Positions 3 through 26,937 of a DNA stretch of 64,000 nucleotides are shown here, in pieces. The position numbers and the translations under genes are program-made. The notes below the pieces were generated by a model, which worked only from the letters and a program-made list of their open reading frames with translations, made no database searches and was not told the DNA's origin. Position 1 is the stretch's first letter. Every line of letters begins with the position of its first letter. Source of the stretch: an uncultured SAR86 cluster bacterium (GTDB taxonomy: Bacteria; Pseudomonadota; Gammaproteobacteria; Magnimaribacterales; D2472); contig CACJJI010000001.1 of assembly GCA_902593675.1 (NCBI GenBank), forward strand, positions 320,957-384,956, written 5' to 3'.

Positions 3-749
3 ATGGAGTTAGTTTTAACTAATTTATTATTGATAGCGCTTGGTGGCTGTCTTGGAAGTTTTGCTTCAGTGTTAATTTACCGGCTGCCATTAGAAAACAG
101 TGAAATTAATATTTTACAGCCTAGATCATTTTGCCCTCTTTGCAAAAATCAACTAACAATTATGCAGCTGATTCCATTCGTAGGATATCTTTATACCAAA
201 GGAACTTGTCGAACGTGTAATGCCAAAATAAGCCCCACCTATTTTATTCATGAAGTATTAATTACTGCTTTTATTATATTAATATTTTATAAAATGGAAT
301 TTGCCGCTCTTTCATCATGGCTGATAGTTTTAATTGTGATTTGTTTGTATATTCAATCAATAATAGACATCCAGACTCTCCATTTATTTCAGCCCCTGAG
401 CATTATTTTGGTTATGACTGGATTATTTCTTAATATATCAACTGAATTTTTTACAATTCCTTTAGATGCTTTACTTGGATTAATTTTTGGATACGGAATA
501 TTATTTTGCATTAATCATCTTCATAAAATGGTGCGATCGATAGATGCAATTGGGTCTGGTGATTTTTTATTGCTTGGGGGAATTGGGTCTGTTTTTGGAG
601 CTTCAGCTTTAGGGCCAATTCTATTGATTGGGTCAAGCATTACTTTATGCCTATACCTTTTTAATAAGAATAAAGATAAAGAGTTGCCATTAGGATTTGG
701 CTTGGGCTTAGCCGGAATTGTTTATTGCTTAATGTTTATTTATATTTAA
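3..749 (+). CDS. pilD: Prepilin peptidase / type IV leader peptidase (A24 family)
   Basis: Two CxxC pairs (CPLC, CRTC), multi-TM protein, IGSGDF (GxGD-type) aspartyl motif. Confidence 0.85.
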   Translation: MELVLTNLLLIALGGCLGSFASVLIYRLPLENSEINILQPRSFCPLCKNQLTIMQLIPFVGYLYTKGTCRTCNAKISPTYFIHEVLITAFIILIFYKMEFAALSSWLIVLIVICLYIQSIIDIQTLHLFQPLSIILVMTGLFLNISTEFFTIPLDALLGLIFGYGILFCINHLHKMVRSIDAIGSGDFLLLGGIGSVFGASALGPILLIGSSITLCLYLFNKNKDKELPLGFGLGLAGIVYCLMFIYI

Positions 750-1648
750 TCTTCTTTAAGACTAGGAGGAAAAACTCCCTCGTGAAATGGATATGGCAAA
801 GATAACATGCCCAAATTTTTAAATTCATCAATAAATCCTTCCATCACTCCATCAATATCCTGTATTGACCAACTCTCATCTTTTTGTAAAGTTTTGCCAT
901 AGTGCGGTTGAACCATCAAGGCCAGTCTTTGCCCTCCACATCCAAATATTTGACCGCTAATTTTATTTGCTAAATGGCTGGATAAGTATGTAATTAAGGG
1001 GCCATTTGATGTTGGGTCAATGAATGACAGATTATCATTGTCCATATTTTTGCTTGAGGCAAAAGTTGCCGACATTCTAGTAGAGCCAGTTGGTCCAATT
1101 GCATTTACTCTAATCCCATATTTCGAAAGTTCAATAGCCCAGGTATATGTCATAGAGGCAATAGCCCCTTTTGCTGCGGCATAATTTGTTTGTCCAAAAT
1201 TTCCAAAATGAGCACCAGAAGTAGTATTAATAATTGAGCCTCCCCCACCAGATTCTTTCATTTTTAATGCAGCATATTGAGAGCACCAAAAAGTGCCTTT
1301 AACATGAATATTCCAAACTGAGTCGAATTCCTCATCGGTCATTTTTAATAGAGATTTATCTCTCAAAATTCCTGCATTATTAACAAGAATATCAACACTG
1401 CCGAACTCTGCAGCACATTGATCAATTAGGTTAGAACAACCCTTTCTTGAAGAAATATCGTGAGCACTAATCTTAGCTTTGCCTCCTGCATCTTCTATTT
1501 CACAAACAACTTTTTTAGCCTCTTCAACATCTATATCATTGACCAAAACAGAAGCGCCTGATTGGGCCAAGTGAAGACAGTGACCTCTTCCTATACCTCT
1601 TCCTCCACCTGTAACGATTGCAGCTTTATTTTTAAGCAATTCCTTCAA
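746..1648 (-). CDS. SDR family oxidoreductase (17beta-HSD/MFE-like)
   Basis: TGGGRGIGR cofactor motif, NNAG, YAAAK catalytic motif. Confidence 0.85.
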   Translation of the reverse strand: MKELLKNKAAIVTGGGRGIGRGHCLHLAQSGASVLVNDIDVEEAKKVVCEIEDAGGKAKISAHDISSRKGCSNLIDQCAAEFGSVDILVNNAGILRDKSLLKMTDEEFDSVWNIHVKGTFWCSQYAALKMKESGGGGSIINTTSGAHFGNFGQTNYAAAKGAIASMTYTWAIELSKYGIRVNAIGPTGSTRMSATFASSKNMDNDNLSFIDPTSNGPLITYLSSHLANKISGQIFGCGGQRLALMVQPHYGKTLQKDESWSIQDIDGVMEGFIDEFKNLGMLSLPYPFHEGVFPPSLKED

Positions 1649-1750
1649 GGCACTCTCCTATGAAAAATTTAACTATGACTATATTTTTTAACATAACAAA
1701 TGCAAAATAAATAGAGTAGTAATTCATAGTAATATAAATCGAAATAAATA

Positions 1751-2524
1751 ATGGATGATCTAACAAAAAGAAAACTGTTTCCTGAAGGCTCCGCGGTTGT
1801 TATTGGGGGCAGTGGAGGTATAGGTTCATCGATATGTAAAACATTTGCTGCTCATGGGGTACCAGTAATATTCTCATATCATGGAAATGAAACAGCAGCT
1901 AATAATCTTAAAAAAGAAATTTTAGACTATGGTGGAATTGCTTCCTCTCAGAGATTATCAATAAATAAAAAAAATGAAGTAGAAAGTTTCTTTAAGAACT
2001 TAAAAGACGAACGTATTCATAGCATAGTCAATGCAACTGGATCAGATATAAGAATGAAATGGATCAATGAATTGTCCTATGAGGAATGGGATGATGTAAT
2101 GCGAACAGATGCTGATGGATTTTTTAATATTATAAAAAATAGTCTTCCTATTCTAAGAAAATTTGGAGGTTCGTATACAACTCTAAGCTCAATTGGTTTA
2201 TCCAGATGGCCTGTAAAAGATGTTCTTTCTGTTGCACCTAAGGCTGCAATTGACGCCTTAATTAATGGTATTGCAAAAGAAGAAGGTCGAAATAATATTA
2301 GAGCCAATTCCATACAACTTGGAATCATAGAGGCGGGAATTTTCTTAAGAATAAAAGGTAAAGATTATGATGACCGATATATAGAAGCTGCAAAAAATAA
2401 TACCGCTCTTAAAAAATTAGGTGAAGCTCAGGATGTTGCAGATGCTGTCATCTTCCTTGCATCAGATAGAGCTAAATATATAACTGGTCAAACGTTATAT
2501 CTGGATGGAGGCTACAGAATTTAA
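1751..2524 (+). CDS. SDR family protein with atypical active site (SVAPK in place of YxxxK)
   Basis: GGSGGIG nucleotide-binding motif and C-terminal GQTLYLDGG; the catalytic Tyr position reads Ser. Confidence 0.8.
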   Translation: MDDLTKRKLFPEGSAVVIGGSGGIGSSICKTFAAHGVPVIFSYHGNETAANNLKKEILDYGGIASSQRLSINKKNEVESFFKNLKDERIHSIVNATGSDIRMKWINELSYEEWDDVMRTDADGFFNIIKNSLPILRKFGGSYTTLSSIGLSRWPVKDVLSVAPKAAIDALINGIAKEEGRNNIRANSIQLGIIEAGIFLRIKGKDYDDRYIEAAKNNTALKKLGEAQDVADAVIFLASDRAKYITGQTLYLDGGYRI

Positions 2525-2544
2525 TATAAAAATAAGGAGGATTT

Positions 2545-2949
2545 ATGCCTACAAAAGAACAAATTGAAACAACAATGAAAATTCATTTTAATTCTTGGAA
2601 TAATGAAGAGAAGGAAAAATGGATGGATAATTGGACTGATGATGTGGTGATGTTTGATCCTGTAGGAGGTCCTGATAAAAATGGAAAAATAGCCCTTGAA
2701 GAAACTTGGCGAAATAGTTTTAAAGATGGGCATCATTGGAAAATAGAGCCAGTTTTTATGCAAATATGTGAAAATCAAGCAGCTCTTCATGTAAAAAATT
2801 ATGGAACTGTAGAAAATGAACCAATAGAACTTGATAGCATTGAAATATATTGGATAAATGACGATGGGAAAGTTTACAAAGTCCAAACATACTTTGGGCC
2901 CCCCGAAGGAAGAACACTTGATCCATTTTTTTCTAAAAAAGATATTTAA
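2545..2949 (+). CDS. NTF2-like / ketosteroid-isomerase-fold protein
   Basis: 134 aa, TDDVVMFDPVGGPDKNG resembles the KSI region around its catalytic Asp. Confidence 0.7.
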   Translation: MPTKEQIETTMKIHFNSWNNEEKEKWMDNWTDDVVMFDPVGGPDKNGKIALEETWRNSFKDGHHWKIEPVFMQICENQAALHVKNYGTVENEPIELDSIEIYWINDDGKVYKVQTYFGPPEGRTLDPFFSKKDI

Positions 2950-2988
2950 AGCTTATCTTGGTATATAAATTTTTACGTAAAAATTTAG

Positions 2989-4590
2989 TTATACCCAATT
3001 CTCAAAGGAAGATAGGGTTTTCCCTGCAATATATGCGAAGGTAAGTGCAGGACCAATTGTGCCTCCACCTCCTCCATAACTTGGTCCCGGAGAGCCTACT
3101 CCAGAAGAATTCCCAGAAGCACAAAGTCTTTTGATAGGAATTTCATTTACATCTAACACCTGTGAAAATTTATTTACTCTAGGGCCTCCACATGTTCCTA
3201 AATGAGCAGGTGCAATTTCTGCACCATAAAAAGGTGGTTGGTCGAGTGGCTGAAGAGCTAAACTAGTGTCCTTAATACCCATCCTATCGTAATGAGTTTC
3301 GCCTCTGTGAAAATCTGGATCAATGCCTAACAAGGCATTTTTATTGAAATTAGAAATGGTTAATTTTAAATTATTTTGATTAATACCTAACTTTTTGGCT
3401 AGCCCCTCTATAGTGTTAGATTTAACAAACCAATTAGGTAATGACTGATCAAATGTTTTGCCACCCAGTGTGCCATTTAGTCTTACTTTATGATCAAATA
3501 TTTGAAAAGCTGGGATATTTTTATATTTTAATGCTCCCCAATTTTCTTTAGCATGAAATGAACGCCATGAAGAGTCATAATCTGCTTTCTCATTTGAAAA
3601 TCTATTTCCATAACGATTTACTAAAATGCAGCTAGGATAATATTTTTTTTCAGTCACGGCATTCAAAGATCCTAAAGCTCCAGCCTCTCCTTTGTAGACC
3701 ACACTTCCCCATACCTCATTCATATTTCTTAAATCTGCGCCAAGTTTCATCGCCATCTTTATACCATCTCCGGTATTCGATTTGACTCCAACCCCATAAG
3801 AAGGAATTGATAAAAAATTTTTTTTCATTTGTTCATCGTGATCAAAGCCACCACTTGCTATGAGAACTCCTTTTTTTGCTTTTAAATTATATAACTTTCC
3901 TTTTGAGCTATATGCGACTCCAAGAACTTCAGAAGAGCCGTCTTCATTTTCTCTGCTAATTAACTCTGTAGCTGGAGTATCTAAAAGCATTTCACCACCT
4001 AGATTCTTAAAAGTATTTAATAAATGAGAGATCAAAATTCCTCCAAAATGAGCTCCATCTGGCCCTCCAGTATCGGGCTCAATACTGCGGCCCTTAAGAA
4101 CACTCCCTTCCCAATCAGTATGATACTCTGAAGCCTCTCCCATAATTTTTGAGACCCTCCATTTTAATGAGGTGTTATCCTCAAGAAATTTGACCATTCT
4201 TGGACCTTCTGCAGCAAATGCCTCAATCAATTCTTGATCTGCCTGTCCTTGTGAAAGTTGATTTAAATACTTTAATGAATTGTCTTTTGAATCGGTAAAT
4301 CCTTCCCTCTTCATAACATGATTGTTTGGTACCCAAGCAACACCTCCTGAAATTGCAGTTGTGCCCCCAGCTGAGCGAGCTTTTTCTAAAACAACAACTC
4401 TAAGTCCTTTTTTTAGCGCTGTAATAGCGCCAGCTAACCCTGTTCCTGATCCTATAACTACAATATCAGTTTCGCCATGCCATATAAAATTATTGTCTTT
4501 AAGAGGTTTTTTTAAGCTAAGGAGAAAACCTGTACCTATAAGACCAATGAAGCTTTTGAAAAAAAAATCTCTTCTTTTAAATAGGCCCAT
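2989..4590 (-). CDS. FAD-dependent 3-ketosteroid-dehydrogenase-like flavoprotein with predicted Tat signal
   Basis: N-terminal KRRDFFFK plus hydrophobic stretch; GSGTGLAGAITA FAD motif; C-terminal YGGGGGTIGPALTFAYIAG. Confidence 0.8.
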   Translation of the reverse strand: MGLFKRRDFFFKSFIGLIGTGFLLSLKKPLKDNNFIWHGETDIVVIGSGTGLAGAITALKKGLRVVVLEKARSAGGTTAISGGVAWVPNNHVMKREGFTDSKDNSLKYLNQLSQGQADQELIEAFAAEGPRMVKFLEDNTSLKWRVSKIMGEASEYHTDWEGSVLKGRSIEPDTGGPDGAHFGGILISHLLNTFKNLGGEMLLDTPATELISRENEDGSSEVLGVAYSSKGKLYNLKAKKGVLIASGGFDHDEQMKKNFLSIPSYGVGVKSNTGDGIKMAMKLGADLRNMNEVWGSVVYKGEAGALGSLNAVTEKKYYPSCILVNRYGNRFSNEKADYDSSWRSFHAKENWGALKYKNIPAFQIFDHKVRLNGTLGGKTFDQSLPNWFVKSNTIEGLAKKLGINQNNLKLTISNFNKNALLGIDPDFHRGETHYDRMGIKDTSLALQPLDQPPFYGAEIAPAHLGTCGGPRVNKFSQVLDVNEIPIKRLCASGNSSGVGSPGPSYGGGGGTIGPALTFAYIAGKTLSSFENWV

Positions 4591-4596
4591 TGTTAG

Positions 4597-6309
4597 TTAT
4601 ATAGTATTGGACCCACTAATATGTTTACCAGCAATAAATCCAAATGTCATTGCAGGACCAATTGTAGCTCCAGGCCCTGGATATGTAGTTAATAGGGCTG
4701 GGGTGCAATTTCCAGTTGCATATAAACCTCCAATAGCTTGATTATCATTATTAAGAACTTGCCCATATTCGTTAATTGCCATTCCCCCACAAGTTGCAAA
4801 TTCACCTGGGTCAATTCTCATTGCATAATATGGAGCTTGATTGACTGGACCCAAGCATGGATTGATAAGGCTTTGATCGCCAGAGAATCTATCTCTTTCA
4901 TTATCCCCCCTTTGAAAATCTATATCCTTTCCGGTTTCAGAAAACTTATTAACTTTTTGAATTGTATCTTCAAGACCATCAGGATTTATCCCTGTTTTTT
5001 GTGCGAGCTCCTGAATAGAGTTTGCGCGGGTAATAAAATCGTCATTAAACCAATTTCTATGGACAAATTTTACTAAAGGGTCTGGAAAAAACTTACCTGG
5101 CATAAGTGGTCCTACAGGATAGTTTTTTCGATGATTAGAATCAAATATCATATACATTGGTGTAAAGGACTCTCCTTGTTCCTGTTTTCGCAATACTTCC
5201 AGCATAAAAGTAAGGTAGTTCTGAGATTCATTAGCAAAGCGTTTTCCAGACTTATTAACTGTATAATTTCCTGGCATTGATTTTTCTACTTCGCTGAGTC
5301 TCGGAAAATCTTCATCAGGCGCTTTTAGTGTTGTTACCCACCAAGCTTTATTCATAAATTTTAATTGTGCTCCAATTGCCTCTGCTGCTTTAATTGGGTC
5401 ACCTGTATTCGTCTTTGGTTCGCAACCCCAATCAGTGTTTGTTGGTTTAGGTAAATACTCCTCTCTCATTGCTTGATTCTGCCCAAATCCTCCCGAGGCA
5501 ACGATGACACCCCTAGTAGCTTTAATTCTCAAGATTTGACCATCTTTGTTTACTAATGCACCAACCACTCTATTATTTTCAACAATATATTCTTTTAATT
5601 CTGTTGATCTCCATATTGGAATATTTCTCTTTTTTGCTGAAGAAATTAACCTAGCAACTGAGGCAGCACCAAAAGCCAATCTTCTAGATCGTTTGCGTTT
5701 AAGCCTCCATGGGATATCAAGCCAATACTTGAAAAAAATTTTTAAAAATAATTTAAGCCATCCAGGTGATTGAGTTGTAAATGCATGAGACTCTTCAAAA
5801 TTAACTCCATAACGACCAAAAAGAATTGTTTGTGGGCCTGAGGGGTGTAAGTTATCTACATCATCCTTAAGTGTATCTGCAGAAACTGGAGATGGCTCTA
5901 AGGCTCGATTGCCTAATTTTACTCCAGGAGCATCTTGAAAATAGTCAGGATAATGCTCAAGACTGGTATAACTTACATCGGTATTATCTTCCATAAACTT
6001 TACCATTTTGGGCCCATTCTCAAGATATGCATCAATCATTGGCTCATTAAATTCATCAGAAGGGATCGTTGCTTTTAAATAATCTTTTGCATCTGATAAA
6101 GAGTCATCAGCACCAGCTTGAATAGCATGATGATTATTTGGGATCCAAATGACGCCCCCAGAGGTTGCGCTTGTGCCGCCAATAAGTTTATTTTTTTCTA
6201 TAACTAAAACTTTAGAAGCATTAGTAATATTTGCAGTTAAAGCCGCAGTTAGACCTCCGCAACCACTTCCAACAACCAATACATCTACTGTTTCATCAAA
6301 TTTTTGCAA
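4597..6309 (-). CDS. kstD: 3-oxosteroid 1-dehydrogenase-like FAD flavoprotein (KstD family)
   Basis: GSGCGGLTAALTA FAD motif; TTYPGPGATIGPAMTFGFIAGK C-terminal motif typical of KstD. Confidence 0.8.
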   Translation of the reverse strand: MQKFDETVDVLVVGSGCGGLTAALTANITNASKVLVIEKNKLIGGTSATSGGVIWIPNNHHAIQAGADDSLSDAKDYLKATIPSDEFNEPMIDAYLENGPKMVKFMEDNTDVSYTSLEHYPDYFQDAPGVKLGNRALEPSPVSADTLKDDVDNLHPSGPQTILFGRYGVNFEESHAFTTQSPGWLKLFLKIFFKYWLDIPWRLKRKRSRRLAFGAASVARLISSAKKRNIPIWRSTELKEYIVENNRVVGALVNKDGQILRIKATRGVIVASGGFGQNQAMREEYLPKPTNTDWGCEPKTNTGDPIKAAEAIGAQLKFMNKAWWVTTLKAPDEDFPRLSEVEKSMPGNYTVNKSGKRFANESQNYLTFMLEVLRKQEQGESFTPMYMIFDSNHRKNYPVGPLMPGKFFPDPLVKFVHRNWFNDDFITRANSIQELAQKTGINPDGLEDTIQKVNKFSETGKDIDFQRGDNERDRFSGDQSLINPCLGPVNQAPYYAMRIDPGEFATCGGMAINEYGQVLNNDNQAIGGLYATGNCTPALLTTYPGPGATIGPAMTFGFIAGKHISGSNTI

Positions 6310-6318
6310 TTATTATTC

Positions 6319-7389
6319 CTATGAAAGATTTGATTCCCATTCAAGAGTCTTAGATAAGGCTGGTGAAACCTCAGATCTATCTAAATAGAATTGATTGTAC
6401 CATTCTCGTAATTTATGCACTGGGCCATCTCCATCACATAATAAAGGGTTATCAACTCTCACTTTGTTATGCCATATCTCAACATCTTGCTTAAATGACA
6501 TTTGAGTCATTTCTGTATACATATCTACCATTTCTTGATTCTGCTCATCTGTGAAACTATCATTCTTTTCGACAATCACTCCATGCCTTAAAAGAAAACT
6601 ATCTTTATCAATCGGCACATGACTTACCAATTGAACTGATTTTTGCTTCATTCCTTGACCTTCATTCGTCATCCAACACATCATATATGCTGGACCAAAA
6701 TAAGTAGCTTTTGATTTCATTATCCCGCCTTCATCATACTCCGAGCCTTCTAAATTTTTTCCTTCATTAATTTGCGTTAATACGTGACCTTCAAAGATAT
6801 TCTTAAACCGAGTTGCTGTGACCCCATGAACAGTTTTAAAATGAGCCATATCAGCCATATTATCTATTAACTCCCTGCAGTTAATATTTATAACATTTTC
6901 CTCTAGCACCCAATCTGACCATTTGTCAGAAAAGCATGCTTCTTCTCTAGGAATGATTTCATGGTCTAATGGCTCGGAACCTTCTGGGTCATTCCATACA
7001 AACAATAATTTATTTTCTTCATGCACTTTCCAACTTTGAATACATGCGCCTTTAGGAATTTTTTTAGCATAAGGAATATCTAAACATTCTCCATCCTTTC
7101 CCCAACCCCATTCATGATAAGGACACCTAACCATATCACCATCAACCTTGCCCATGCTGAGATCACCTCCCATATGAGGACAAGCAGCCTGTAGTGCTAA
7201 AGCTTCGCCTTTTGAGTTACGAAAAACCACTAATTTAGTTCCAAAAGCATTAACGCCAACTGGTTTGGACGTAAAGGATTCAGAAAGCCCTAAAGTATGC
7301 CAACCTCGACCATACCTATCTGGTGGCGGTGTTTGATCTATTATTCTTATTTTTTTATTACTCAAAATGCTCCCCCATTTTTTATGCAA
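6319..7389 (-). CDS. kshA: Rieske oxygenase, KshA-like (3-ketosteroid 9alpha-hydroxylase oxygenase component)
   Basis: Rieske CPHMGGDL...CPYHEWGWG; mononuclear iron site NMADMAHFKTVHG; C-terminal CDGDGPVHKLREWYNQFY. Confidence 0.82.
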   Translation of the reverse strand: MHKKWGSILSNKKIRIIDQTPPPDRYGRGWHTLGLSESFTSKPVGVNAFGTKLVVFRNSKGEALALQAACPHMGGDLSMGKVDGDMVRCPYHEWGWGKDGECLDIPYAKKIPKGACIQSWKVHEENKLLFVWNDPEGSEPLDHEIIPREEACFSDKWSDWVLEENVININCRELIDNMADMAHFKTVHGVTATRFKNIFEGHVLTQINEGKNLEGSEYDEGGIMKSKATYFGPAYMMCWMTNEGQGMKQKSVQLVSHVPIDKDSFLLRHGVIVEKNDSFTDEQNQEMVDMYTEMTQMSFKQDVEIWHNKVRVDNPLLCDGDGPVHKLREWYNQFYLDRSEVSPALSKTLEWESNLS

Positions 7390-7390
7390 T

Positions 7391-8623
7391 TTATAACATT
7401 AAATTTTCTGTCTCTATACCCAAAAAACTTGAGCCATAATCCATGGCAAAAGGATCAGAAATATTTGCAACATGAACTTGTGTCATCATAATATCCAAAA
7501 ATTTATTCGTAATCTCATTGCCTAAATAAACCGTTGACCCACCACTTGCTTTGACTAACTTTAAAGCGCCAGCAACACACCTATCATTAATGGTGCTTAC
7601 TTGATACCTATACCTAATCCGATCATTGATATCAATCTCTTTAGATTGATTGGCTGCATCCATCATAGATTTAACATTTGCCTCTATGTTATGCCACAGC
7701 TGATCTATTTCGGTAGAAATTTCTGATGCTAAGGTTAATGTTATGGGATTTGTTTTTGCCTCTACTCCAAAGCTAGAAACTCTCTCTTTTGCCCCCTCAA
7801 TAAATGCATTTAAAGCTCCTTTATAAGCCCCTAAAGCAGGTATGGCTACTGCATGAGTAAAAATTTGTCCAAATGGAACTTGATATAAAGGACCGTTATT
7901 AGAATTATCTGGATTATTATTCAAAAAAGCGTCTTTTAGATAATGGATCCTATGGCCTGGAACAAAAATATTTTCTACTTTAATTCTTTTACTGCCGGTG
8001 CCCTTCAAACCATAGGTATGCCAATTATCAATAATTTCGTAATCGTTTCTTGGTATTAGCAAAGTTACAAAACTATCAAGCCCTTTGGAAGGATCAAGAA
8101 TTGCTCCACCAAAAAACCAATCACAGTGATCACTGCCTGAAGACCAATCCCATTCGCCAGAAACCATAAAACCATCATCTTTAGGCTGAGCCATAGCTTT
8201 TGGAGCATAGGATGAAGAAATTAGAACTGAATTATCTTCACCCCATACCTCATCCTGAGCCTTCTCATCATAGACAGAAATTTGCCAGTTATGCACTCCT
8301 ACAGTTGCATAGACCCATGCTGATGGCATGCAGGCTTCTCCAATAATAGAAGTTACTTTGTAGAAAACTATTGGATCCATTTCATAGCCTCCCCATCTTT
8401 TTGGTTGTACGATCTTAAAGAAACCAAGATCTTTAAAATCCTGAATAGTATCATCTGTAAGTCTTCGCAATTTAGCTGTTTCCTCTGCTCGACTTTCAAG
8501 CACAGGCTTTATATCTTCAGCTCTTTTATACAATTCTTCAGGAGATGGAATTAGATTTTCAGTCATCTTATTAATACCTCTAGCAAAAAAATAAAAAAAT
8601 ATATTAATTAATAATATACACAT
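7391..8623 (-). CDS. hsaA: Acyl-CoA-dehydrogenase-fold flavin-dependent monooxygenase, HsaA-like
   Basis: Pattern PKRWGGYEMDP, GVHNWQISVY, SGEWDWSSGSDHCDWFFGGA typical of HsaA/HpaB-type oxygenase components; M at about residue 20 (MTENLIPSPEE) is a more likely start. Confidence 0.8.
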   Translation of the reverse strand: MCILLINIFFYFFARGINKMTENLIPSPEELYKRAEDIKPVLESRAEETAKLRRLTDDTIQDFKDLGFFKIVQPKRWGGYEMDPIVFYKVTSIIGEACMPSAWVYATVGVHNWQISVYDEKAQDEVWGEDNSVLISSSYAPKAMAQPKDDGFMVSGEWDWSSGSDHCDWFFGGAILDPSKGLDSFVTLLIPRNDYEIIDNWHTYGLKGTGSKRIKVENIFVPGHRIHYLKDAFLNNNPDNSNNGPLYQVPFGQIFTHAVAIPALGAYKGALNAFIEGAKERVSSFGVEAKTNPITLTLASEISTEIDQLWHNIEANVKSMMDAANQSKEIDINDRIRYRYQVSTINDRCVAGALKLVKASGGSTVYLGNEITNKFLDIMMTQVHVANISDPFAMDYGSSFLGIETENLML

Positions 8624-14500: not shown

Positions 14501-15186
14501 GATTTTTCCTTTCTAATGTCTGATTCTATCAAACCATCCTTAATAAATATTGTTCTTTGAGCTTCTGCAGCTACTTCATTCTCGTGAGTAATTAGAATAA
14601 TAGTTTGACCTTGTTGATGAAGATTATGAAAAAGCTGCATCACATCATGCCCAGTTTGGCTATCTAAGTTTCCAGTAGGCTCATCAGCAAATAGAATAGA
14701 AGGGTTGTTAACCAAAGCTCTCGCTATGGCAACTCTTTGCTGCTGCCCTCCTGAAAGCTCAGATGGCTGATGATCCATTCTTGATTCAAGCCCAACCTGA
14801 CAGAGAACATCCTTACCTATTCTGAGTTGATCGTTTTTGCCTACTCCTGCATATTTTAGAGGTAGCATGACATTATCAAGAGCACTGTTGCGTGCCAACA
14901 AATGGAAATTTTGAAAAACAAATCCAATTTCTTTATTTCTTATGCTTGCAAGCTCATCGCCTTCAAGCGAACTAACTTCTTGGTTATTAAGATAGTATGT
15001 ACCATCTGTTGGACTATCAAGACACCCGATAATATTCATTAGCGTTGATTTACCTGATCCTGATGGACCCATAATTGCTATAAATTCCCCTTGCTCAATA
15101 CCAAAACTCACACCTCTTAAGGCTTCAACGGTTTGCGTACCAAGCAAGTAATGTTTGGTAATATTTTTAACTTCTATAACATTCAT
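14497..15186 (-). CDS. ABC transporter ATP-binding protein, MacB/LolD-like
   Basis: Walker A GPSGSGKST, signature LSGGQQQR, Walker B ILFADEPTG. Confidence 0.96.
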   Translation of the reverse strand: MNVIEVKNITKHYLLGTQTVEALRGVSFGIEQGEFIAIMGPSGSGKSTLMNIIGCLDSPTDGTYYLNNQEVSSLEGDELASIRNKEIGFVFQNFHLLARNSALDNVMLPLKYAGVGKNDQLRIGKDVLCQVGLESRMDHQPSELSGGQQQRVAIARALVNNPSILFADEPTGNLDSQTGHDVMQLFHNLHQQGQTIILITHENEVAAEAQRTIFIKDGLIESDIRKEKS

Positions 15187-15638
15187 GCTGGCTTACATAT
15201 AAATACAGGTATTTCTCTAGAGGTATTACTCTGATAGGTTTCATAGTTAGGATAAAATGAACAAATTAATGGCCATAACTCATCCTTCTTCTCTTTGGAC
15301 ACCTCTTCTGCTAGATAGTTCCCTTGCCCATCAATGGTTGTGATCTTAACTGCTGGGTGAGCTTTAAGATTGTAATACCAATCAGGATTCTTTGGCATGC
15401 CTCCAAGAGATGCAACCAGAATTGGCATACCATCTTGATGAACATAAATTAAGGGAATATTTCTTATTTTATTAGATTTAGCGCCCTTGGTTTCTACAAC
15501 CATAATTGGAAAGCCGCCCGGCCACTTATTCCATAATTTGCCGTTACTAAACAAAAATATAGAGGCTTGGAATTTAGCAAAATATTTAATCATTCGCTTC
15601 GCGGTTTTAGCTTGCTTTGTAGAATATTTTTCAGACAT
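15183..15638 (-). CDS. DDN/FDOR-type (nitroreductase/cation-responsive) family protein
   Basis: TKGAKSNKIRNIPLIYVHQDG...VASLGGMPKNPDWYYNLKAHPAV, hallmark of the DDN family. Confidence 0.85.
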   Translation of the reverse strand: MSEKYSTKQAKTAKRMIKYFAKFQASIFLFSNGKLWNKWPGGFPIMVVETKGAKSNKIRNIPLIYVHQDGMPILVASLGGMPKNPDWYYNLKAHPAVKITTIDGQGNYLAEEVSKEKKDELWPLICSFYPNYETYQSNTSREIPVFICKPA

Positions 15639-15747: not shown

Positions 15748-16914
15748 TTATTCGAAAGAAGCTATTCCAGTTTGAAAATTGCCAAGAATCAGCGCATGTA
15801 AATCATGAGTGCCCTCATAAGTATTTACAGCTTCGAGATTCATTGAATGTCTGACAACATGATACTCATCAATGACTCCATTTCCTCCATGCATATCTCT
15901 TGCCATCCTAGCTATATCTAGGGCCTTGCCACAGTTATTGCGCTTGATAAGCGAAATCATTTCTGGGACCATTTTATCTTCATCAATCAACCTTCCAACG
16001 CGGAGGGCTGCCTGAAGACCAAGAGAAATCTCTGTTTGCATGTCGGCCAATTTTTTTTGAATTAATTGCTTGCTAGCTAAAGGATTACCAAATTGCACTC
16101 TATCTAATGTGTACTGTCTCGCTGCATGCCAACAAAACTCGGCCGCGCCAATGACCCCCCAAGCAATTCCATATCTGGCTAAGTTTAAACAGGTAAATGG
16201 GCCTCTAAAGCTTTGTGCTAAGGGTAAAACATGATCATCTGGAATAAAAACATCTTCCATAAATACTTGACCAGTGACAGATGCACGAAGTGCAAATTTT
16301 CCACTCATTGGTTTTGCTTCAAGTCCCTTAAACTCTTTTCTTGCAATGAAGCCTCTCAATACTCCTTGCTCATCTTTGGCCCAAATTACAAAAACATCTG
16401 CAATAGGCGCATTTGTGATCCATGTTTTTGATCCATTTAATTCATAACCACCATCAACTTTCTTAGCTCTTGAAAGCATGCTACCTGGATCTGAGCCAGC
16501 ATCAGGCTCTGTCAAACCAAAACATCCTACAAGCTCTCCTGTAGCCATTTTTGGCAGCAATTCTTCTTTTTGTTCCTCAGAACCAAAATTATAAATTGCA
16601 TACATCGATAGCGATGACTGAACACTAAACGCAGATCGATAACTGGTGTCAACTCTTTCAATTTCTCTTGTTATCAATCCATAAGCAACGTAATTAATCC
16701 CGGCACAGCCATAACCTTTAATGGTTGCCCCTAAGATACCAAGATCACCCATCTCCCTCATAATTTCAGGATGAAAAATCTCATTTCTGTTTGATTCTAT
16801 GATCCTTGGCATCAATGATTTTTGACAATATTCCCTAACATTATCTCTAATCATTCTTTCTTCCTCAGAAAGCTGATCATCAAATTTAAAAATGTCTTCC
16901 CAATTATTTTCCAT
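15748..16914 (-). CDS. gcdH: Glutaryl-CoA dehydrogenase
   Basis: [44 protein letters not shown]. Confidence 0.9.
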
Positions 16915-19504: not shown

Positions 19505-20731
19505 TTAATTTAGATTGGTTTGCACGGTCATAACATCCATTCTTCTTGCATTATGATGATCATAATCATAGATAATCTCATTGCCCAAACTAAGATTTGG
19601 AAACCGTTTGAATAATTCTTTCAACATTACTTCTGTTTGAGATCTAACTAATGTGACACCTATACAATAATGAGGACCCTGCCCAAAAGAAATGCTCTTA
19701 TCATGATCTCTCCTGATATCAAATTTTCTTGGATTTTCATATATCTTTGGATCCATGCCTGCAGTGCTTGTAATAAGTTGAACCATTTGCCCTTTTTTAA
19801 TTTCATGACCATTGAGTTCTATATCTTCAGAAGCATATCTAGCTAAACCTGTCTTACCTGATGATTCATATCTCAGTGTTTCTGAGATGGCTCCTTGAAC
19901 GAGGCTTTCATCATTTTTTAACTCATCTAGCTGATCAGGATGCTGTAATAAAGTTTTTATCAAATAGCTATGAAGGTCAACAGCTGTATCTGAGCCTGCT
20001 CCCAAAACTGCTCCAACAAGAGCACACATCTCTAAATTTGATAGCTTTGAACCTTGATCCTCTGCCAGAATCAAAGTTGAAAGAAAATCATCGCCAGGAT
20101 TCTTTCTTCTTTCATCAATTAATTCATTGAGAAGGATTAGCCCCTCTGGAACTCCCTTGATTGCGTCCTTTCTTTCCTCTGGAGTTAGCATTGGGTTTAT
20201 CCCTCTTACCACCCCATATGCTAAAGAATCAAAAATAGGGAATTTATCTCTTGGGATTCCTACTAAACTTGCTATGGCTTGGGTTGGAATAATTTCAGCA
20301 ATTTCTGCAGCAAAATTAAAGGAATCTGGGGTCCCAATTTCGTTAAATCTTTCTTCAACCAAGATAGTAAATCTCTCTTTCATTTGCTGCATAATTCGTG
20401 GAGAAAATGCAGGTAATGCTAATTTTCTTAATCTCAAATGATTTTTTCGATCTAAGAAAAAAAGATTATTGTTCATTAGTTTTTCAAAAGGGTCCATATC
20501 TTTAATTGCTTTTTTCTCTGGAGCGAATTCCCACAAATTAAAATCTGTTGATAGTCTGGGATCCAATAAACATTTGATAATATTTTCATGTCCTGTAACT
20601 AACCATGCCTGCCATTGATCAAATCTAGAAATTGGAAATTCAGAGCTTAATTTTTCTAGAGTTGGGATAGGATCATGAATAAAATCCTTGGATGAAGGAT
20701 TAAAAAAATGATCAACAGTTTGAACGCTCAT
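19505..20731 (-). CDS. Cytochrome P450
   Basis: Heme ligand motif FGQGPHYCIG; I-helix GAGSDTAVD; ETLRYES (ExxR). Confidence 0.95.
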   Translation of the reverse strand: MSVQTVDHFFNPSSKDFIHDPIPTLEKLSSEFPISRFDQWQAWLVTGHENIIKCLLDPRLSTDFNLWEFAPEKKAIKDMDPFEKLMNNNLFFLDRKNHLRLRKLALPAFSPRIMQQMKERFTILVEERFNEIGTPDSFNFAAEIAEIIPTQAIASLVGIPRDKFPIFDSLAYGVVRGINPMLTPEERKDAIKGVPEGLILLNELIDERRKNPGDDFLSTLILAEDQGSKLSNLEMCALVGAVLGAGSDTAVDLHSYLIKTLLQHPDQLDELKNDESLVQGAISETLRYESSGKTGLARYASEDIELNGHEIKKGQMVQLITSTAGMDPKIYENPRKFDIRRDHDKSISFGQGPHYCIGVTLVRSQTEVMLKELFKRFPNLSLGNEIIYDYDHHNARRMDVMTVQTNLN

Positions 20732-20743
20732 AATTAAATTTTT

Positions 20744-21622
20744 TTAGAAAATGTTGGGGTTGGGTAGATCCCCTCTTGAGATAATAGAATCAACACGATC
20801 CTTAAATGCTTGTTCACTTTTTTCATTTACAGGATTAATCCAATACTTTCCTTCTAGAATTTGAGACAGGCAGAATGAAGCAACCTCTTCTGGCTCAGTT
20901 GTCTCCATTTCAATTCCCATTGAGCTCATCATTTCTAGCATATCTTCCACGGAGGAGATTGGATGTTCTGGAGCATTTGGGTCTCTTGCAAGTTCTTCAG
21001 GGCGGTTCCTTTCAGCTGAAAATAGCTTGGTTCTAACTGTGTGTGGGCCTGGAAAAAGAATTGAAACCTTAACATTTGCATCAGCCTGCTCAAGTTGAAG
21101 TTTCAATACCTCCGAAATACTAGAGACTGAAGCTTTGGATGATGTGTATATAGGTGTAGAAGGTAAATTAATAAATGCGCCATTACCTGAACACGTGTTA
21201 ATAACTCTGGACTCTTCCCCATGAGCTAACATCCTAGGGACAAACGCTTGAATGCCATGTAGTACCCCCATAACATTTACACCATAAGCCCATTCCCAAT
21301 CATTTGGTTTTGTCTCCCAAATTGGAAGCAACTCTGCAGGGGCAACTCCAGCATTGTTAAAAAGTAAATGTACTGGCCCATGTTCCGAATCACACCAGCC
21401 TGCAAGGTCTTTCATAGACTCGATGTTTGAAACATCTGCAACCTTAGAGCAAACATCAAGCGATTTATTTGCAAGTAAGGCTGTTGAGCTTTCAAGACTT
21501 TCTTTTTCCACATCAGTAAGAATTACCTTTGCGCCCTCTTTTGCTAAAGCTTCGCCAATTGCAAACCCAACACCAGATGCGCCTCCAGTAACGACAGCCA
21601 ATTTGCCATTAAAATCTTTCAT
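20744..21622 (-). CDS. SDR family oxidoreductase
   Basis: TGGASGVGFAIG, NNAG, YTSSK. Confidence 0.9.
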   Translation of the reverse strand: MKDFNGKLAVVTGGASGVGFAIGEALAKEGAKVILTDVEKESLESSTALLANKSLDVCSKVADVSNIESMKDLAGWCDSEHGPVHLLFNNAGVAPAELLPIWETKPNDWEWAYGVNVMGVLHGIQAFVPRMLAHGEESRVINTCSGNGAFINLPSTPIYTSSKASVSSISEVLKLQLEQADANVKVSILFPGPHTVRTKLFSAERNRPEELARDPNAPEHPISSVEDMLEMMSSMGIEMETTEPEEVASFCLSQILEGKYWINPVNEKSEQAFKDRVDSIISRGDLPNPNIF

Positions 21623-21631
21623 ATTTAATCC

Positions 21632-22399
21632 TTAGGCAGAGTCATACCTAGAATGCATAAAGGGTACATATGACATCGCATCTACCTCTTCCATGACTGA
21701 TGCATTGGAAGATGAGGTGCCTTCCTCCCAAACTAAAGAAACCATTTCTTTAACTGGTAAATCAACAACAGGATCAACCGGTGATTCTCTAAGTATAATC
21801 TCCCCATCAAGCTTTGTATGAACAGATTGAGTTCTGTGCATATTAATTTTTACAAGTAATGGATTTTGATCAACTGCTTTGTGCTGCTCGCACGAGGGGA
21901 ATACCTTAAAACAGTATACGTCGTCTGTAAAAGAAGATGTCTCTAGTGAATCGGTAGTTTTGCCTTTTAATTCTATATATGTAATGCCATGCCTGGTTAC
22001 CGTTGCAACACAATTATCACCATCTTTTGATGCTGTAACATCTGCTATTTTCTTTGGCTCCCCATATGTTTCTCTTCCTCCAACAACAACTCCTTCAGTT
22101 TCCATAGGCATAGTAATTTCATAAATACCCTCTTTTCCTTTATACATGCAGTTAACGCCAAAGGTTGCAGCTCCAAAATCCATTCCACCATTCAAATCAA
22201 CAAAAACCCTAGAAATTACTATTCTTACCATAGGATCAGCATGAGCCTCTAATGGCGCTGGAATTAATTGCTCTATAAGGCCGGGTTCAGTTTTGTACCA
22301 AGCTTTTATGGCATGCATATTTGCATCAAAAAATTCTAAGTTATTTTCTGCAGCCTCAATTAGCTGCTCAGGTGTTTTAACAAATCTAAGCTGTGTCAT
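21632..22399 (-). CDS. Acetoacetate decarboxylase family protein
   Basis: GGRETYGEPKKIADV resembles the catalytic-lysine region of ADC. Confidence 0.8.
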   Translation of the reverse strand: MTQLRFVKTPEQLIEAAENNLEFFDANMHAIKAWYKTEPGLIEQLIPAPLEAHADPMVRIVISRVFVDLNGGMDFGAATFGVNCMYKGKEGIYEITMPMETEGVVVGGRETYGEPKKIADVTASKDGDNCVATVTRHGITYIELKGKTTDSLETSSFTDDVYCFKVFPSCEQHKAVDQNPLLVKINMHRTQSVHTKLDGEIILRESPVDPVVDLPVKEMVSLVWEEGTSSSNASVMEEVDAMSYVPFMHSRYDSA

Positions 22400-22607: not shown

Positions 22608-23609
22608 ATGCCAAAACAAGAATTTCCATTTCCAATGCCAAACGGGTGGTTTTGCGTAACCAGAAGCCATGAGCTAAAAGCCGGAGAAGTGCAATCTTTA
22701 AAATTTTGTGAAAAAGAGGTAGTTGCTTTTAGAACTGAAAGTGGTGCTCCAACTGTACTAGATGCATTTTGCCCTCACTTGGGAGCTCATTTAGGTGAAG
22801 GAGGTTGTGTGCGTGGTGAAACCATAGAATGCCCTTTTCATGCATGGCGGTGGAATGCAGACGGAACGTGTGCTGAGATTCCATATGCTAAAAATTTTCC
22901 TCCAAAAGCCAAGGAAACAAGAATCTTTAATTATCCAGTCGTAGAGGTGAATGGATTTATTTGGGCTTGGCATCATCTTCACAAAGAAGAGCCAACTTGG
23001 GAAGTTCCTGTAATAGAGGGTTTTAATGGCGATGACGAGAAATGGGGAAAAGTATATCACTACGATTACAACATCAATACTGTCTTACAAGAAATAGCTG
23101 AGAATGATGTTGATCAAGCTCACTTCCCAAAAGTTCATGGATCTCCCAGTCTGCCAGAAACTGAAGCAATTACGGAAGGAATATACAAAAAGACAATTGC
23201 TGAAACATTAATGGATCCGAGTAATGATAGTGTTTCTGAAGAGTTTAAAGTAAAAGATCATGGGATGTTTACCACTACTTTCACAAGAGAGTCTTGGGGC
23301 CTAGGAACAGTTGGATTGCGAATGGTTAATTTGCCACCAAGCGGAGGAGAATTCATCATGGTTAACGCCTCGTGTCCAGTTGATAATTCCAATTCTATCT
23401 TACGCTGGTCAATGAGAGTCTCTAAAGATATTGAAGATGAGCTTGGAATGGCGATCATTGATGGCATAGCGAATGGTGTCTTAGATGACATGCCAATTTG
23501 GGACAACAAAAGTTATGTTGCTGATCCAATTCTATGTGATGGCGATGGACCAATTAATAAATTTCGTAAATGGGTTAGTCAATTTTACTCTGAACCTATA
23601 CAAAACTGA
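22608..23609 (+). CDS. Rieske oxygenase, second KshA-like paralog
   Basis: CPHLGAHL...CPFHAWRW; ENDVDQAHFPKVHG; C-terminal CDGDGPINKFRKWVSQFY. Confidence 0.87.
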   Translation: MPKQEFPFPMPNGWFCVTRSHELKAGEVQSLKFCEKEVVAFRTESGAPTVLDAFCPHLGAHLGEGGCVRGETIECPFHAWRWNADGTCAEIPYAKNFPPKAKETRIFNYPVVEVNGFIWAWHHLHKEEPTWEVPVIEGFNGDDEKWGKVYHYDYNINTVLQEIAENDVDQAHFPKVHGSPSLPETEAITEGIYKKTIAETLMDPSNDSVSEEFKVKDHGMFTTTFTRESWGLGTVGLRMVNLPPSGGEFIMVNASCPVDNSNSILRWSMRVSKDIEDELGMAIIDGIANGVLDDMPIWDNKSYVADPILCDGDGPINKFRKWVSQFYSEPIQN

Positions 23610-24804: not shown

Positions 24805-26937
24805 ATGAATAGGCAAATTAAACATCCGCTTCTTGCTTCGCCTGCTTCGATTGGAAGCTTGGAATTAAAAAATAGAATGATTATGGCTGCAATGGGTTCA
24901 AATTTTGCTTCAGAAGATGGTTGCACGACTGAGAAATTAATCGCTTATTATGAAGAGAGGGCCCGAGGAGGAATCGGGTTAATTATTTTAGAAACCTCAG
25001 CAATCACTTGGCCCGCAGGAGCGTCCATGCCAAATATGATAGGTTTTTCTAAAGATGAATTTATCCCTAGTCTTCAATCCTTGACCCAGCGCATCCATCA
25101 ACATGGCTCAAAAATAGCTGCTCAACTTAATCATAGTGGAAAAATAGCTCAAGAGGATGTTATTGCCGGAAGACCTATTCCAGTTCCCTCAATACCAAAA
25201 TCTGAGCCAAGTGACATGTTTGGCTTGCTAACTCAAGATGAAATTATGAATTTTATTAAAGCTGGTGGGCCTGATGGAAAAGGCCCTCGTTATCATGAGC
25301 TATCAGTGGATGAAATCCATAAAGAAGTTCAGCACTTTGTGGATGCTGCAAAACGAGCTAAAGCCTCAAATTTTGATGCAGTAGAAATTCATGCTGGTCA
25401 TGGCTATCTTATTTCGAGCTTCCTTTCTCCAGCAATTAATAAAAGAACAGATGAATACGGAGGAACTGTTGAAAATAGAGCAAGGCTACTTGTAGAAATT
25501 ATTTCTCAAATAAAAAAACAAGTAGAAGACTTTCCTATACTAGTTAGACTTGACGCTAACGAATACCGTATAGAAAACGGAATAACTCCTGCTGACTTTT
25601 TAATTACTGCTTCGATGGCACAAAATGCAGGTGCTGATGCAATTGATGTAAGCGCATACGGAAATACAAGTAAGGGGATAGCATTTACCGAAGCACCACT
25701 TGTTCATGAACCAGGCGGATTTTTAAATTTTGTAAAAATGGCTAAAAGAGAGCTAACTATACCCATCATTGCAGTTGGCAGAATTGAACTTGATGTTGCA
25801 GAAAAAGGATTAAAAGATAATGAATTTGATTTTTTAGCCATGGGAAGGAAAGTATTGGCTGATCCTGGCCTACCAAACAAAATTATTTCAGGTCAGGAAT
25901 ATCTTATTAGACCCTGCATCTATTGTTATGTCTGTGTTAGTCAAATTTTTATCAATAAACCAATGAAGTGTGCAGTAAACTCTCAACTTGGTAATGAGCA
26001 TCGTAATGAAAATATCATTCATTCAACAGCCAATCAAAAGAAAATATTAGTAGTTGGTTCTGGTCCAAGTGGCATGGAATCAGCAAGACTTCTAGCAATG
26101 CGAGGTCATCATGTTGAGGTATGGGAAAAAGATAAAGACATTGGAGGTACTATTAGGGTTGCAGCATTAGCATACGAACCAAATGGTCGTCTAATAAGTT
26201 ACCTAAAGAATTCTCTAGATGAGCTAGGAGTTAAAATAAAACTAAAGAAAATAGCAACGGCTGGGTCAATTAAAGCCTTTAATCCTGACCATGTAATAGT
26301 TGCAATCGGCGCTAAAAGAAATGCCCCATCAATAAAGGGAAAGAATAATAAGAATGTTTTTGATGGAGAGCAGCTTAGAGGATTATTATTTGGTGCAGAT
26401 GCAAATGCCATTAATAAACTTTCAATATTTCAACAATTAATTTTAAAAATTGGAAAAGCATCTCAGTTATTAAGAAATATCTCTGCGCTAAGGTTTCTTA
26501 GTAAAATCTGGATGCCTCTATCAAAAAATATTATTGTCATAGGAGGAGATTTGGTTGGTTTGGAATTAGCTGAATTTCTTGTAGAGAGAGGCAGGACTGT
26601 GAAGGTGCTCGAGCCAAGCAGCTCACTTGGTCCCAACTTAAGCATTGTTAGAAGATCTAGAGTTGTGCATATGTTAAAAGAACATGGTGTAGAACTTTTA
26701 ACTAATGTAATGATCAAGGAAATTTGCGATCAAGAGGTAATTTTTAACCATGAAGAAACTGAAAAAACGCTGCAGGCCGATCAAGTAATTATCGCCCTAG
26801 GAACCAATGCTAATTTAGAGCTTTCCGATGAACTCAAGAGACTGAATGTACCACTTACCTCAATTGGAGACTGTACATCTGTGGGTTATATTCATGGAGC
26901 CATAGCTGACGCAAGGGAAGCTGTAATCAATCTTTAA
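24805..26937 (+). CDS. NADH:flavin oxidoreductase / 2,4-dienoyl-CoA reductase-like (OYE barrel plus FeS plus FAD domain)
   Basis: HAGHGYLISSFLSPAINKRTDEYGG; Cys cluster CIYCYVC...C; VVGSGPSGMESARLLA. Confidence 0.92.
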   Translation: MNRQIKHPLLASPASIGSLELKNRMIMAAMGSNFASEDGCTTEKLIAYYEERARGGIGLIILETSAITWPAGASMPNMIGFSKDEFIPSLQSLTQRIHQHGSKIAAQLNHSGKIAQEDVIAGRPIPVPSIPKSEPSDMFGLLTQDEIMNFIKAGGPDGKGPRYHELSVDEIHKEVQHFVDAAKRAKASNFDAVEIHAGHGYLISSFLSPAINKRTDEYGGTVENRARLLVEIISQIKKQVEDFPILVRLDANEYRIENGITPADFLITASMAQNAGADAIDVSAYGNTSKGIAFTEAPLVHEPGGFLNFVKMAKRELTIPIIAVGRIELDVAEKGLKDNEFDFLAMGRKVLADPGLPNKIISGQEYLIRPCIYCYVCVSQIFINKPMKCAVNSQLGNEHRNENIIHSTANQKKILVVGSGPSGMESARLLAMRGHHVEVWEKDKDIGGTIRVAALAYEPNGRLISYLKNSLDELGVKIKLKKIATAGSIKAFNPDHVIVAIGAKRNAPSIKGKNNKNVFDGEQLRGLLFGADANAINKLSIFQQLILKIGKASQLLRNISALRFLSKIWMPLSKNIIVIGGDLVGLELAEFLVERGRTVKVLEPSSSLGPNLSIVRRSRVVHMLKEHGVELLTNVMIKEICDQEVIFNHEETEKTLQADQVIIALGTNANLELSDELKRLNVPLTSIGDCTSVGYIHGAIADAREAVINL

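Follow-up and report, generated by a model that had tools for sequence, protein, structure and literature searches.

SAR86 bacteria are abundant in the ocean. Steroid catabolism has previously been reported in SAR86 (Bergstrand 2016, PMC4810484; Ramfelt 2024, PMC11582366), in the same lineage as studied here and with the same gene set (tesI, hsaA, hsaC, hsaD, fadD3, kshA and kstD), and covering several genomes of the "Suzuki" family; the pathway as such is, therefore, not new. The tes cluster of Comamonas testosteroni, which serves the 9,10-seco degradation of testosterone and cholate, encodes counterparts of TesH/KstD, TesI, TesA2/HsaA, HsaD, HsaE, HsaF, HsaG and the ligase that are 37 to 59% identical to the SAR86 proteins, and the SAR86 TesI-like protein is 41 to 44% identical to the product of the gene that adjoins the position of KstD (TesH) in clusters of the Comamonas type. 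KshA and KshB form a two-component class IA system (PMC4064121). Two systems with divided chains have also been described: in NdmCDE (PMC4408171), the Rieske domain and the mononuclear-iron site lie on separate chains and the Rieske domain is fused to a reductase, and the chlorophyllide a oxygenase of Micromonas consists of two polypeptide chains (PMC9615114).

Here, we analysed a 64,000-nucleotide stretch of DNA (the window) from a SAR86 genome of 1.51 Mb and 81% completeness. We suggest, with a probability of roughly 85%, that the gene cluster in the window serves to open rings A and B within an aerobic 9,10-seco pathway for steroids, probably sterols. Four minus-strand genes, encoding HsaA, KshA1, KstD1 and KstD2, follow one another, as an earlier note on this DNA had read them, with gaps of 1 to 9 bp in an operon-like arrangement; the two SDR genes and the SnoaL-like gene that it placed next to this run are indeed present as open reading frames (Table 1).

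Table 1. Genes of the ring-A/B region of the window, with the evidence for each assignment
Feature	Coordinates	Strand	Evidence
SDR1, PRK07791-type relative	746..1648	-	300 aa; NCBIfam NF005861 243 bits, cut-off 373 not reached
SDR2	1751..2524	+	257 aa; Pfam adh_short_C2 145 bits
SnoaL_2-fold protein	2545..2949	+	134 aa; Pfam SnoaL_2 37.9 bits
KstD2, KstD-like flavoprotein with N-terminal Tat signal	2989..4590	-	PDB 7p18, 4c3x
KstD1, 3-ketosteroid delta-1-dehydrogenase	4597..6309	-	PDB 7p18, residues, tree
KshA1, 3-ketosteroid 9alpha-hydroxylase oxygenase, Rieske and catalytic domain	6319..7389	-	KshA_C, Rieske, PDB, tree
HsaA (SAR86 type A), 3-HSA hydroxylase oxygenase, group-D flavin monooxygenase	7391..8623	-	NF045629, 2rfq
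F420H2-dependent quinone reductase family protein	15183..15638	-	PF04075 118 bits
Acyl-CoA dehydrogenase	15748..16914	-	Pfam
Cytochrome P450	19505..20731	-	PF00067 102 bits
SDR3	20744..21622	-	in G147, same run as HsaA-KshA1-KstD1
Acetoacetate decarboxylase-fold protein	21632..22399	-	PF06314 124 bits
KshA2, KshA_C-family Rieske oxygenase	22608..23609	+	KshA_C 110 bits

For all four enzymes, the PDB and profile scores are far beyond chance. First, KshA1 scores 246 bits with the Pfam KshA_C profile and 72 bits with the Rieske profile, matches the KshA structures 4qdc, 4qdf and 2zyl with 326 to 340 bits (4qdc, E 1e-100), carries the Rieske and 2-His-1-Asp motifs and falls within the clade of characterised KshA proteins. 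Second, KstD1 matches 7p18 over its full length (462 bits, E 3e-137), groups in the tree with 7p18 and with proteins from the TesH position in Comamonas, and has no recognised export signal. The four KstD catalytic residues, Tyr119, Tyr318, Tyr487 and Gly491 (R. erythropolis numbering), mapped on 4c3x, are all matched in the alignment of KstD1 (PDYF, QNY and TTYPGPG). Third, they are matched as well in KstD2 (SEYH, ADY and PSYGGGG), which scores 211 bits with 7p18 (E 4e-61) and 175 bits with 4c3x. KstD2 forms a long branch of uncertain position, is not beside KstD1 in two other loci (L002 and L004), and could catalyse a reaction different from that of KstD. Fourth, HsaA scores 344 bits with the NCBIfam HsaA model NF045629, below its strict cut-off of 450, versus 204 bits with the next family (p-HPA hydroxylase), and its best PDB match is 2rfq (279 bits, E 4e-82). 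Because the alignments of its relatives begin at residues 16 to 25, the true start is probably an internal ATG at about 8566. The backbone of the HsaA tree, with supports of 40, is unresolved, and type A is, therefore, not firmly placed. The steroid-like character that the earlier note gave to these enzymes is upheld by phylogeny for KshA1 and KstD1, which group with characterised steroid enzymes.

KstD2 carries an N-terminal twin-arginine motif, which reads KRRDFFFKS in G000, G074 and G076, KKRREFFLKS in G077 and KRREFFLKT in G163, a genome from another SAR86 family; the RRxFFxK core is thus retained in G077 and in the G163 orthologue, which is 80% identical. On this basis, KstD2 is predicted to be an exported delta-1-dehydrogenase. 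A literature search for Tat-exported ketosteroid dehydrogenases found none.

The flanking genes allow more limited inferences. A relative of SDR1 (73%) sits within the side-chain cluster of G163, and SDR1 is possibly a 3-hydroxyacyl-CoA dehydrogenase for side-chain beta-oxidation. SDR2 accompanies the module in seven genomes (G000, G074, G076, G068, G077, G147 and G163) and is a candidate hydroxysteroid dehydrogenase. The SnoaL_2-fold gene is assigned to SnoaL_2, and a ketosteroid isomerase role for it is not supported. G076, G068 and G077 retain the quinone reductase family gene close to the operon, and G068 and G077 likewise retain the acyl-CoA dehydrogenase gene; both genes are possibly accessory to the region. 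In G147 (locus L137), the counterpart of the P450 gene lies directly after HsaA-KshA1-KstD1, and the acetoacetate decarboxylase-fold gene is part of the same run.

The window lacks HsaC, HsaD, HsaB and KshB, as the earlier note correctly stated. Its suggestion that the pathway is incomplete or repurposed is not supported, however, and is largely answered by the rest of the genome, in which the eight key 9,10-seco enzymes (KstD, KshA, HsaA, HsaC, HsaD, HsaE, HsaF and HsaG) are all represented as intact open reading frames. Contig C2 carries HsaC through HsaG, a ligase of the FadD3 type and an operon for the C/D rings with IpdA, IpdB, IpdC-like and EchA20-like genes, while TesI-like and sterol side-chain-type genes are found elsewhere on contig C1. 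The HsaC on C2 has M. tuberculosis HsaC (2zi8) as its best PDB match (209 bits) and reaches 269 bits in NCBIfam, below the equivalog cut-off of 450; the top genome match for HsaD, also on C2, reaches 178 bits, below the cut-off of 400. HsaA, HsaC, HsaD and HsaE are best matches that all lie below the NCBIfam strict cut-offs. By contrast, the EchA20-type model NF006140 (446 bits, cut-off 280) and the HsaF, HsaG, FadD3, Ltp2-type and FadA6-type models are matched above their curated cut-offs. IpdA matches 6co6 with 263 bits, and ChsH2 domains are present. Two other candidates for HsaC were rejected: HsaC2 on C1 as the sole HsaC, the C2 protein having the higher HsaC score and lying next to IpdAB, and a two-domain glyoxalase protein at C3:156415, which is methylmalonyl-CoA-epimerase-like. 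For HsaB, the genome offers a weak candidate, a Flavin_Reduct protein on contig C6 that is unlinked to steroid genes (49.5 bits, cut-off 230). A Fer2 family search for a KshB-type reductase in this genome and nine relatives (ten incomplete assemblies, G163 being 96% complete) found none; the matches were frames of 94 to 136 aa, one frame of 238 aa (G089) and NqrF-sized proteins of 411 to 444 aa. The trees of KshA1 and KstD1, together with HsaC and HsaD in the same genome, bear out steroid or sterol use in this compact marine gammaproteobacterium, and neither of the two outcomes that the earlier note named as refuting its reading, a placement outside the steroid clades or a lineage devoid of ring-cleavage genes, was obtained.

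In the scheme that we infer from the sequences, KstD1 would form the delta-1 double bond of ring A, with Tat-exported KstD2 perhaps doing the same in the periplasm. KshA1, supplied with electrons by a small ferredoxin in place of KshB, would hydroxylate C9, upon which ring B would open spontaneously, leaving ring A as a phenol. This phenol would be converted to a catechol by HsaA. The later steps would be carried out by proteins encoded on another contig of the genome: the HsaC-type dioxygenase would cleave the catechol, HsaD would hydrolyse the product, HsaE, HsaF and HsaG would supply pyruvate and acyl-CoA to the cell, and the C/D rings would be degraded via FadD3, IpdC, EchA20, IpdAB and a thiolase. 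With a full set of genes for breaking down sterols in genomes this small, SAR86 may be a considerable sink for sterols from algae and animals.

Alternatively, the same chemistry might have been repurposed for non-steroid polycyclic or terpenoid compounds, e.g., hopanoids, diterpenoids or algal pigments. The equivalog scores under their cut-offs are in line with this idea, as are further KshA_C proteins of SAR86, KshA2 and KshA4, which lie outside the characterised KshA clade (for KshA2 with exclusion support of 100/100) and which the tree does not support as 9alpha-hydroxylases. However, the genome contains C/D-ring genes with specificity for the hydrindane of steroids (IpdA, IpdC-like, EchA20-like and FadD3) and Ltp2- and ChsH2-type side-chain genes, and in G163 the window genes are joined to ring-cleavage and side-chain genes, which together make repurposing unlikely. 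That the cluster carries out a partial biotransformation only (delta-1 dehydrogenation and 9alpha-hydroxylation) and no growth, the remaining genes being vestigial or separately used, would fit ring-cleavage genes that are far off or on other contigs and the lack of a convincing HsaB or KshB, but is very improbable given eight intact key enzymes, a gene order conserved across relatives and an HsaC-type dioxygenase in 37 of 204 SAR86 genomes, with nearly all members of the pathway-bearing genera having it.

Among the 204 SAR86 genomes, which are incomplete environmental assemblies, a window-type second ring-A/B module is present in seven; KshA1, KstD-A and HsaA-A are found together in one set of six to seven, and type A HsaA is carried by six. 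In the majority of pathway-bearing genomes, HsaA and KstD are instead of type B, and KshA is divided. In G163, about 36 kb of one contig hold the window genes, TesI-like and side-chain genes, HsaC2, HsaD, HsaF, HsaG, the divided KshA and FadD3. Given its distribution, we regard the module in the window as a second, accessory ring-A/B set.

In the core pathway, KshA is split, with the Rieske domain and the catalytic domain encoded by adjacent genes. At 29 loci, the catalytic open reading frame lacks C-x-H...C-x2-H and keeps D-x2-H-x4-H, and in 28 of the 28 loci where the partner is present, the partner carries the Rieske motif. This free-standing Rieske protein (open frames of 132 to 167 aa) is of KshA descent, lies beside the catalytic gene, is 45% identical to the Rieske domain of KshA1 and has the KshA-type stretch DIPYAKKIP; these last two features make an ordinary Rieske ferredoxin an unlikely identification. 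The six best structure matches of the catalytic-subunit model are all KshA (E 1e-21 to 1e-22). A frameshift or assembly error was rejected as the cause of the split, which recurs unchanged at 29 loci with identities as low as 51%, the catalytic chain retaining remnant Rieske strands. In most SAR86 genomes with the pathway, no KshA-clade enzyme other than the divided one was found.

Tentatively, and with less confidence than in the pathway itself, these observations can be joined. The 9alpha-hydroxylase of SAR86 might be a two-protein enzyme in which the Rieske subunit pairs with a KshA catalytic subunit whose cluster-binding loops have been lost, three such pairs forming a heteromeric trimer. 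Its electrons would come from a small ferredoxin and not from KshB. The accessory module, with its one-piece KshA1 and its own HsaA, KstD and HsaC2, might act on side-chain-bearing sterols, the attack starting in the periplasm with the Tat-exported KstD. Inter-subunit electron transfer is already known from trimeric Rieske oxygenases; in the divided KshA, the two halves of such an enzyme are naturally separate, and mixing separately made halves would allow a test of this transfer.

Compared to the tes genes of C. testosteroni, those of SAR86 are spread across several loci and include two ring-A/B modules; the KshA of the core module is divided, and KshB was not found. In the available portions of PMC4810484 and PMC11582366, a divided KshA, two types of HsaA and KstD, a Tat-exported KstD and a lack of KshB are not mentioned; the accessory ring-A/B module, the divided KshA, the failure to find KshB in ten genomes and the Tat signal of KstD2 thus appear to be previously undescribed. 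Both KshA1 and the divided KshA share a clade with the actinobacterial enzymes of M. tuberculosis and Rhodococcus; however, in contrast to the actinobacterial KshA/KshB system, no KshB-type protein was found in the ten SAR86 genomes searched. Finally, the Rieske protein of the divided KshA differs from that of NdmCDE in being free-standing and not fused to a reductase.

The steroid-type genes that the earlier note had placed in the window were all found there as intact ORFs. On the minus strand, HsaA, KshA1, KstD1 and KstD2 follow one another head to tail, 1-9 bp apart; SDR1, SDR2 and a SnoaL-like gene adjoin them, and for the last the label of KSI is not supported, as a SnoaL_2 match at 38 bits is all it has. 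Judged from sequence, the profile and PDB matches of the four operon enzymes are beyond chance: KshA1 scores 246 bits with KshA_C and 340 bits against PDB KshA; KstD1 and KstD2 score 462 and 211 bits against PDB KstD; and HsaA scores 344 bits with the HsaA profile versus 204 for p-hydroxyphenylacetate hydroxylase, with a PDB HsaA match of 279 bits. In alignments, KstD1 and KstD2 both keep the positions of the four known catalytic residues of R. erythropolis KstD1. Near the module, 24805-26937 of the window encodes a protein of 710 aa that resembles NADH:flavin oxidoreductases/dienoyl-CoA reductases (Oxidored_FMN at 221 bits, and Pyr_redox_2).

The assembly holding the window at C1:320957-384956 (1.51 Mb, 20 contigs, 81% complete) carries much more of the pathway. 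Among the named assemblies nearest to it by HsaA are ones from the SAR86 cluster, with 75-94% identity and the same gene order. A glyoxalase-family search led to ~21 kb of contig C2 in which steroid-type genes all point in one direction. There, the top PDB match of HsaC is 2zi8, M. tuberculosis HsaC (the PDB title says BphC), and IpdA best matches 6co6, a CoA-transferase alpha subunit known as Rhodococcus IpdA. HsaD is the top match of the HsaD model genome-wide (178 bits; next, 43). The EchA20-type, FadD3, HsaF, HsaG, thiolase and Ltp2-type models pass their curated cut-offs, HsaE reaches 355 against a cut-off of 409, and the candidate IpdC is assigned by its NMO family (232 bits) and its neighbourhood. 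With the TesI-like and side-chain loci of C1, the latter including a second HsaC-type dioxygenase (HsaC2), the C2 genes bring to 8/8 the key 9,10-seco enzymes named in PMC4810484, where the threshold is six. The earlier note, which suggested use of sterols, steroids or related polycyclic substrates and considered the pathway incomplete in the window or its enzymes repurposed, was right in substance and too cautious on completeness. HsaC and HsaD, sought genome-wide, are on C2; HsaB has one weak candidate; and, setting aside a 238-aa frame in G089, a search for plant-type ferredoxin domains in this genome and nine relatives returned no KshB-like reductase, its matches being short frames of ferredoxin size or proteins the size of NqrF.

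The idea that the operon enzymes are repurposed for something other than steroid degradation is countered by gene linkage in relatives. In G163, from a different SAR86 family, pathway genes extend along ~36 kb of contig C9 in the order FadD3, divided KshA, HsaF, HsaG, HsaD, HsaC2, side-chain set, TesI-like, SDR2, KstD2, KstD1, KshA1; HsaA is not visible because the contig breaks off inside KshA1. In G147, HsaA-KshA1-KstD1 runs straight on into genes for the P450, SDR3 and the acetoacetate-decarboxylase-fold protein, which in the window are found at 19505-22399. Together, these arrangements tie the dispersed loci into one function.

Among 204 SAR86 genomes, 37 encode an HsaC-type dioxygenase. 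Window-type HsaA (71-100% identity) is present in six and a second type (39-45%) in most other pathway-bearing genomes, with three having both. Window-type KstD and KshA1 occur in the same seven genomes; a second KstD type (46-51%), the common form in pathway genomes, is found in nearly all, and the genome studied here carries both. HsaC2 accompanies window-type HsaA in 5/6 genomes, although these co-occurrence figures are descriptive only because they take no account of how closely the genomes are related (G074 and G000, for instance, hardly differ). We interpret the cluster in the window as a second, accessory module, which, given the linkage of window genes in G163, probably serves side-chain-bearing sterols. 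The second-type KstD gene is followed by an SDR gene and then a SnoaL-like gene. F420 biosynthesis genes of CofE-, CofD-, CofC- and FbiC-type (Pfam; L186:11028-16445, C1:110.5-116 kb) lie ~4 kb from it; F420 may be used by an F420H2-dependent quinone reductase family protein (window 15183-15638) and by the luciferase-like protein of the HsaD-G operon.

From its N-terminal twin-arginine motif, kept in orthologues of another SAR86 family, KstD2 is predicted to be a delta-1-dehydrogenase that is periplasmic or attached to the membrane. It is optional, as it is absent beside KstD1 at two loci (L002 and L004). Two gamma-glutamyltransferase-like ORFs (L047:17665-19356; window 39424-41127) have export-like N-termini by eye; one of them falls in the interval from the TesI-like/ligase genes to the window operon.

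Predicted steroid-degradation genes of the genome (window, 64,000-nt stretch of contig C1; L, loci with own coordinates)
Feature	Location	Strand	Remark
HsaA	window 7391-8623	-	ORF; profile and PDB match
KshA1	window 6319-7389	-	ORF; KshA_C and PDB match
KstD1	window 4597-6309	-	ORF; PDB match
KstD2	window 2989-4590	-	ORF; PDB match
KstD, second type	C1:119623-121326 (L187:223-1932)		49% to KstD1
Divided KshA, Rieske-only gene	L063:12013-12456 (C2:171.2-172.5 kb with partner)		147 aa
Divided KshA, catalytic gene	L063:11158-12003 (C2:171.2-172.5 kb with partner)		281 aa; degenerate Rieske domain
Further KshA_C-family Rieske oxygenases	window 22608-23609 (KshA2); C1:101502-102143 (L069)		outside characterised KshA clade
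HsaC, IpdA, IpdB, EchA20-type hydratase, IpdC-like nitronate-monooxygenase-family protein, crotonase	C2 (L049 + L063)		
Two acyl-CoA dehydrogenases, thiolase, SDRs, P450	C2 (L049 + L063)		
HsaD, HsaE, HsaG, HsaF, luciferase-like protein, divided KshA, FadD3-family ligase	C2 (L049 + L063)		
TesI-like flavoprotein	L047:13577-15271; C1, upstream of window		41-44% identity to gene beside KstD in Comamonas-type clusters
Side-chain set	C1:160-175 kb		Ltp2-type thiolase, ChsH2-domain protein, MaoC-like pair, acyl-CoA dehydrogenases, P450, HsaC2

The core finding is already known: PMC4810484 describes the steroid pathway in three SAR86 drafts, and several genomes of the 'Suzuki' family have tesI, hsaA, hsaC, hsaD, fadD3, kshA and kstD according to PMC11582366. 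The passages covered from these papers do not mention a divided KshA, a pair of modules, an absence of KshB or a Tat signal. It is the divided KshA that merits work at the bench. Its smaller protein matches Rieske at 75 bits and no other domain; the next gene encodes a protein with KshA_C at 193 bits and no Rieske match. Aligned with KshA1, this catalytic chain lacks the cluster-binding part of the Rieske domain but still has that domain's outer strands, as well as the DKGHFGPVH iron motif and the Asp further on. All 29 loci, which span three genera in one family and two in a second, share this arrangement, and a Rieske partner with intact ligands adjoins the catalytic gene in 28/28 testable loci. 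The six best PDB matches of an AlphaFold2 model of the catalytic chain (mean pLDDT 76) are KshA crystal structures, which beat other Rieske oxygenases by ~ten orders of magnitude in E-value, and the tree places the divided form with characterised KshA (support 88/93). Its closest relatives outside SAR86 are one-piece proteins in G363, from a thin class sample in which 3/369 genomes, the present one included, had any match. Because KshA1 is absent from most genomes with the divided form, and KshA2 and KshA4, the other KshA_C proteins of kinds seen here, fall outside the KshA clade, the divided pair is the best candidate for the 9alpha-hydroxylase of genomes without KshA1. The divided KshA, known from sequence, has precedents in NdmCDE (PMC4408171) and Micromonas CAO (PMC9615114), both Rieske oxygenases in two chains.
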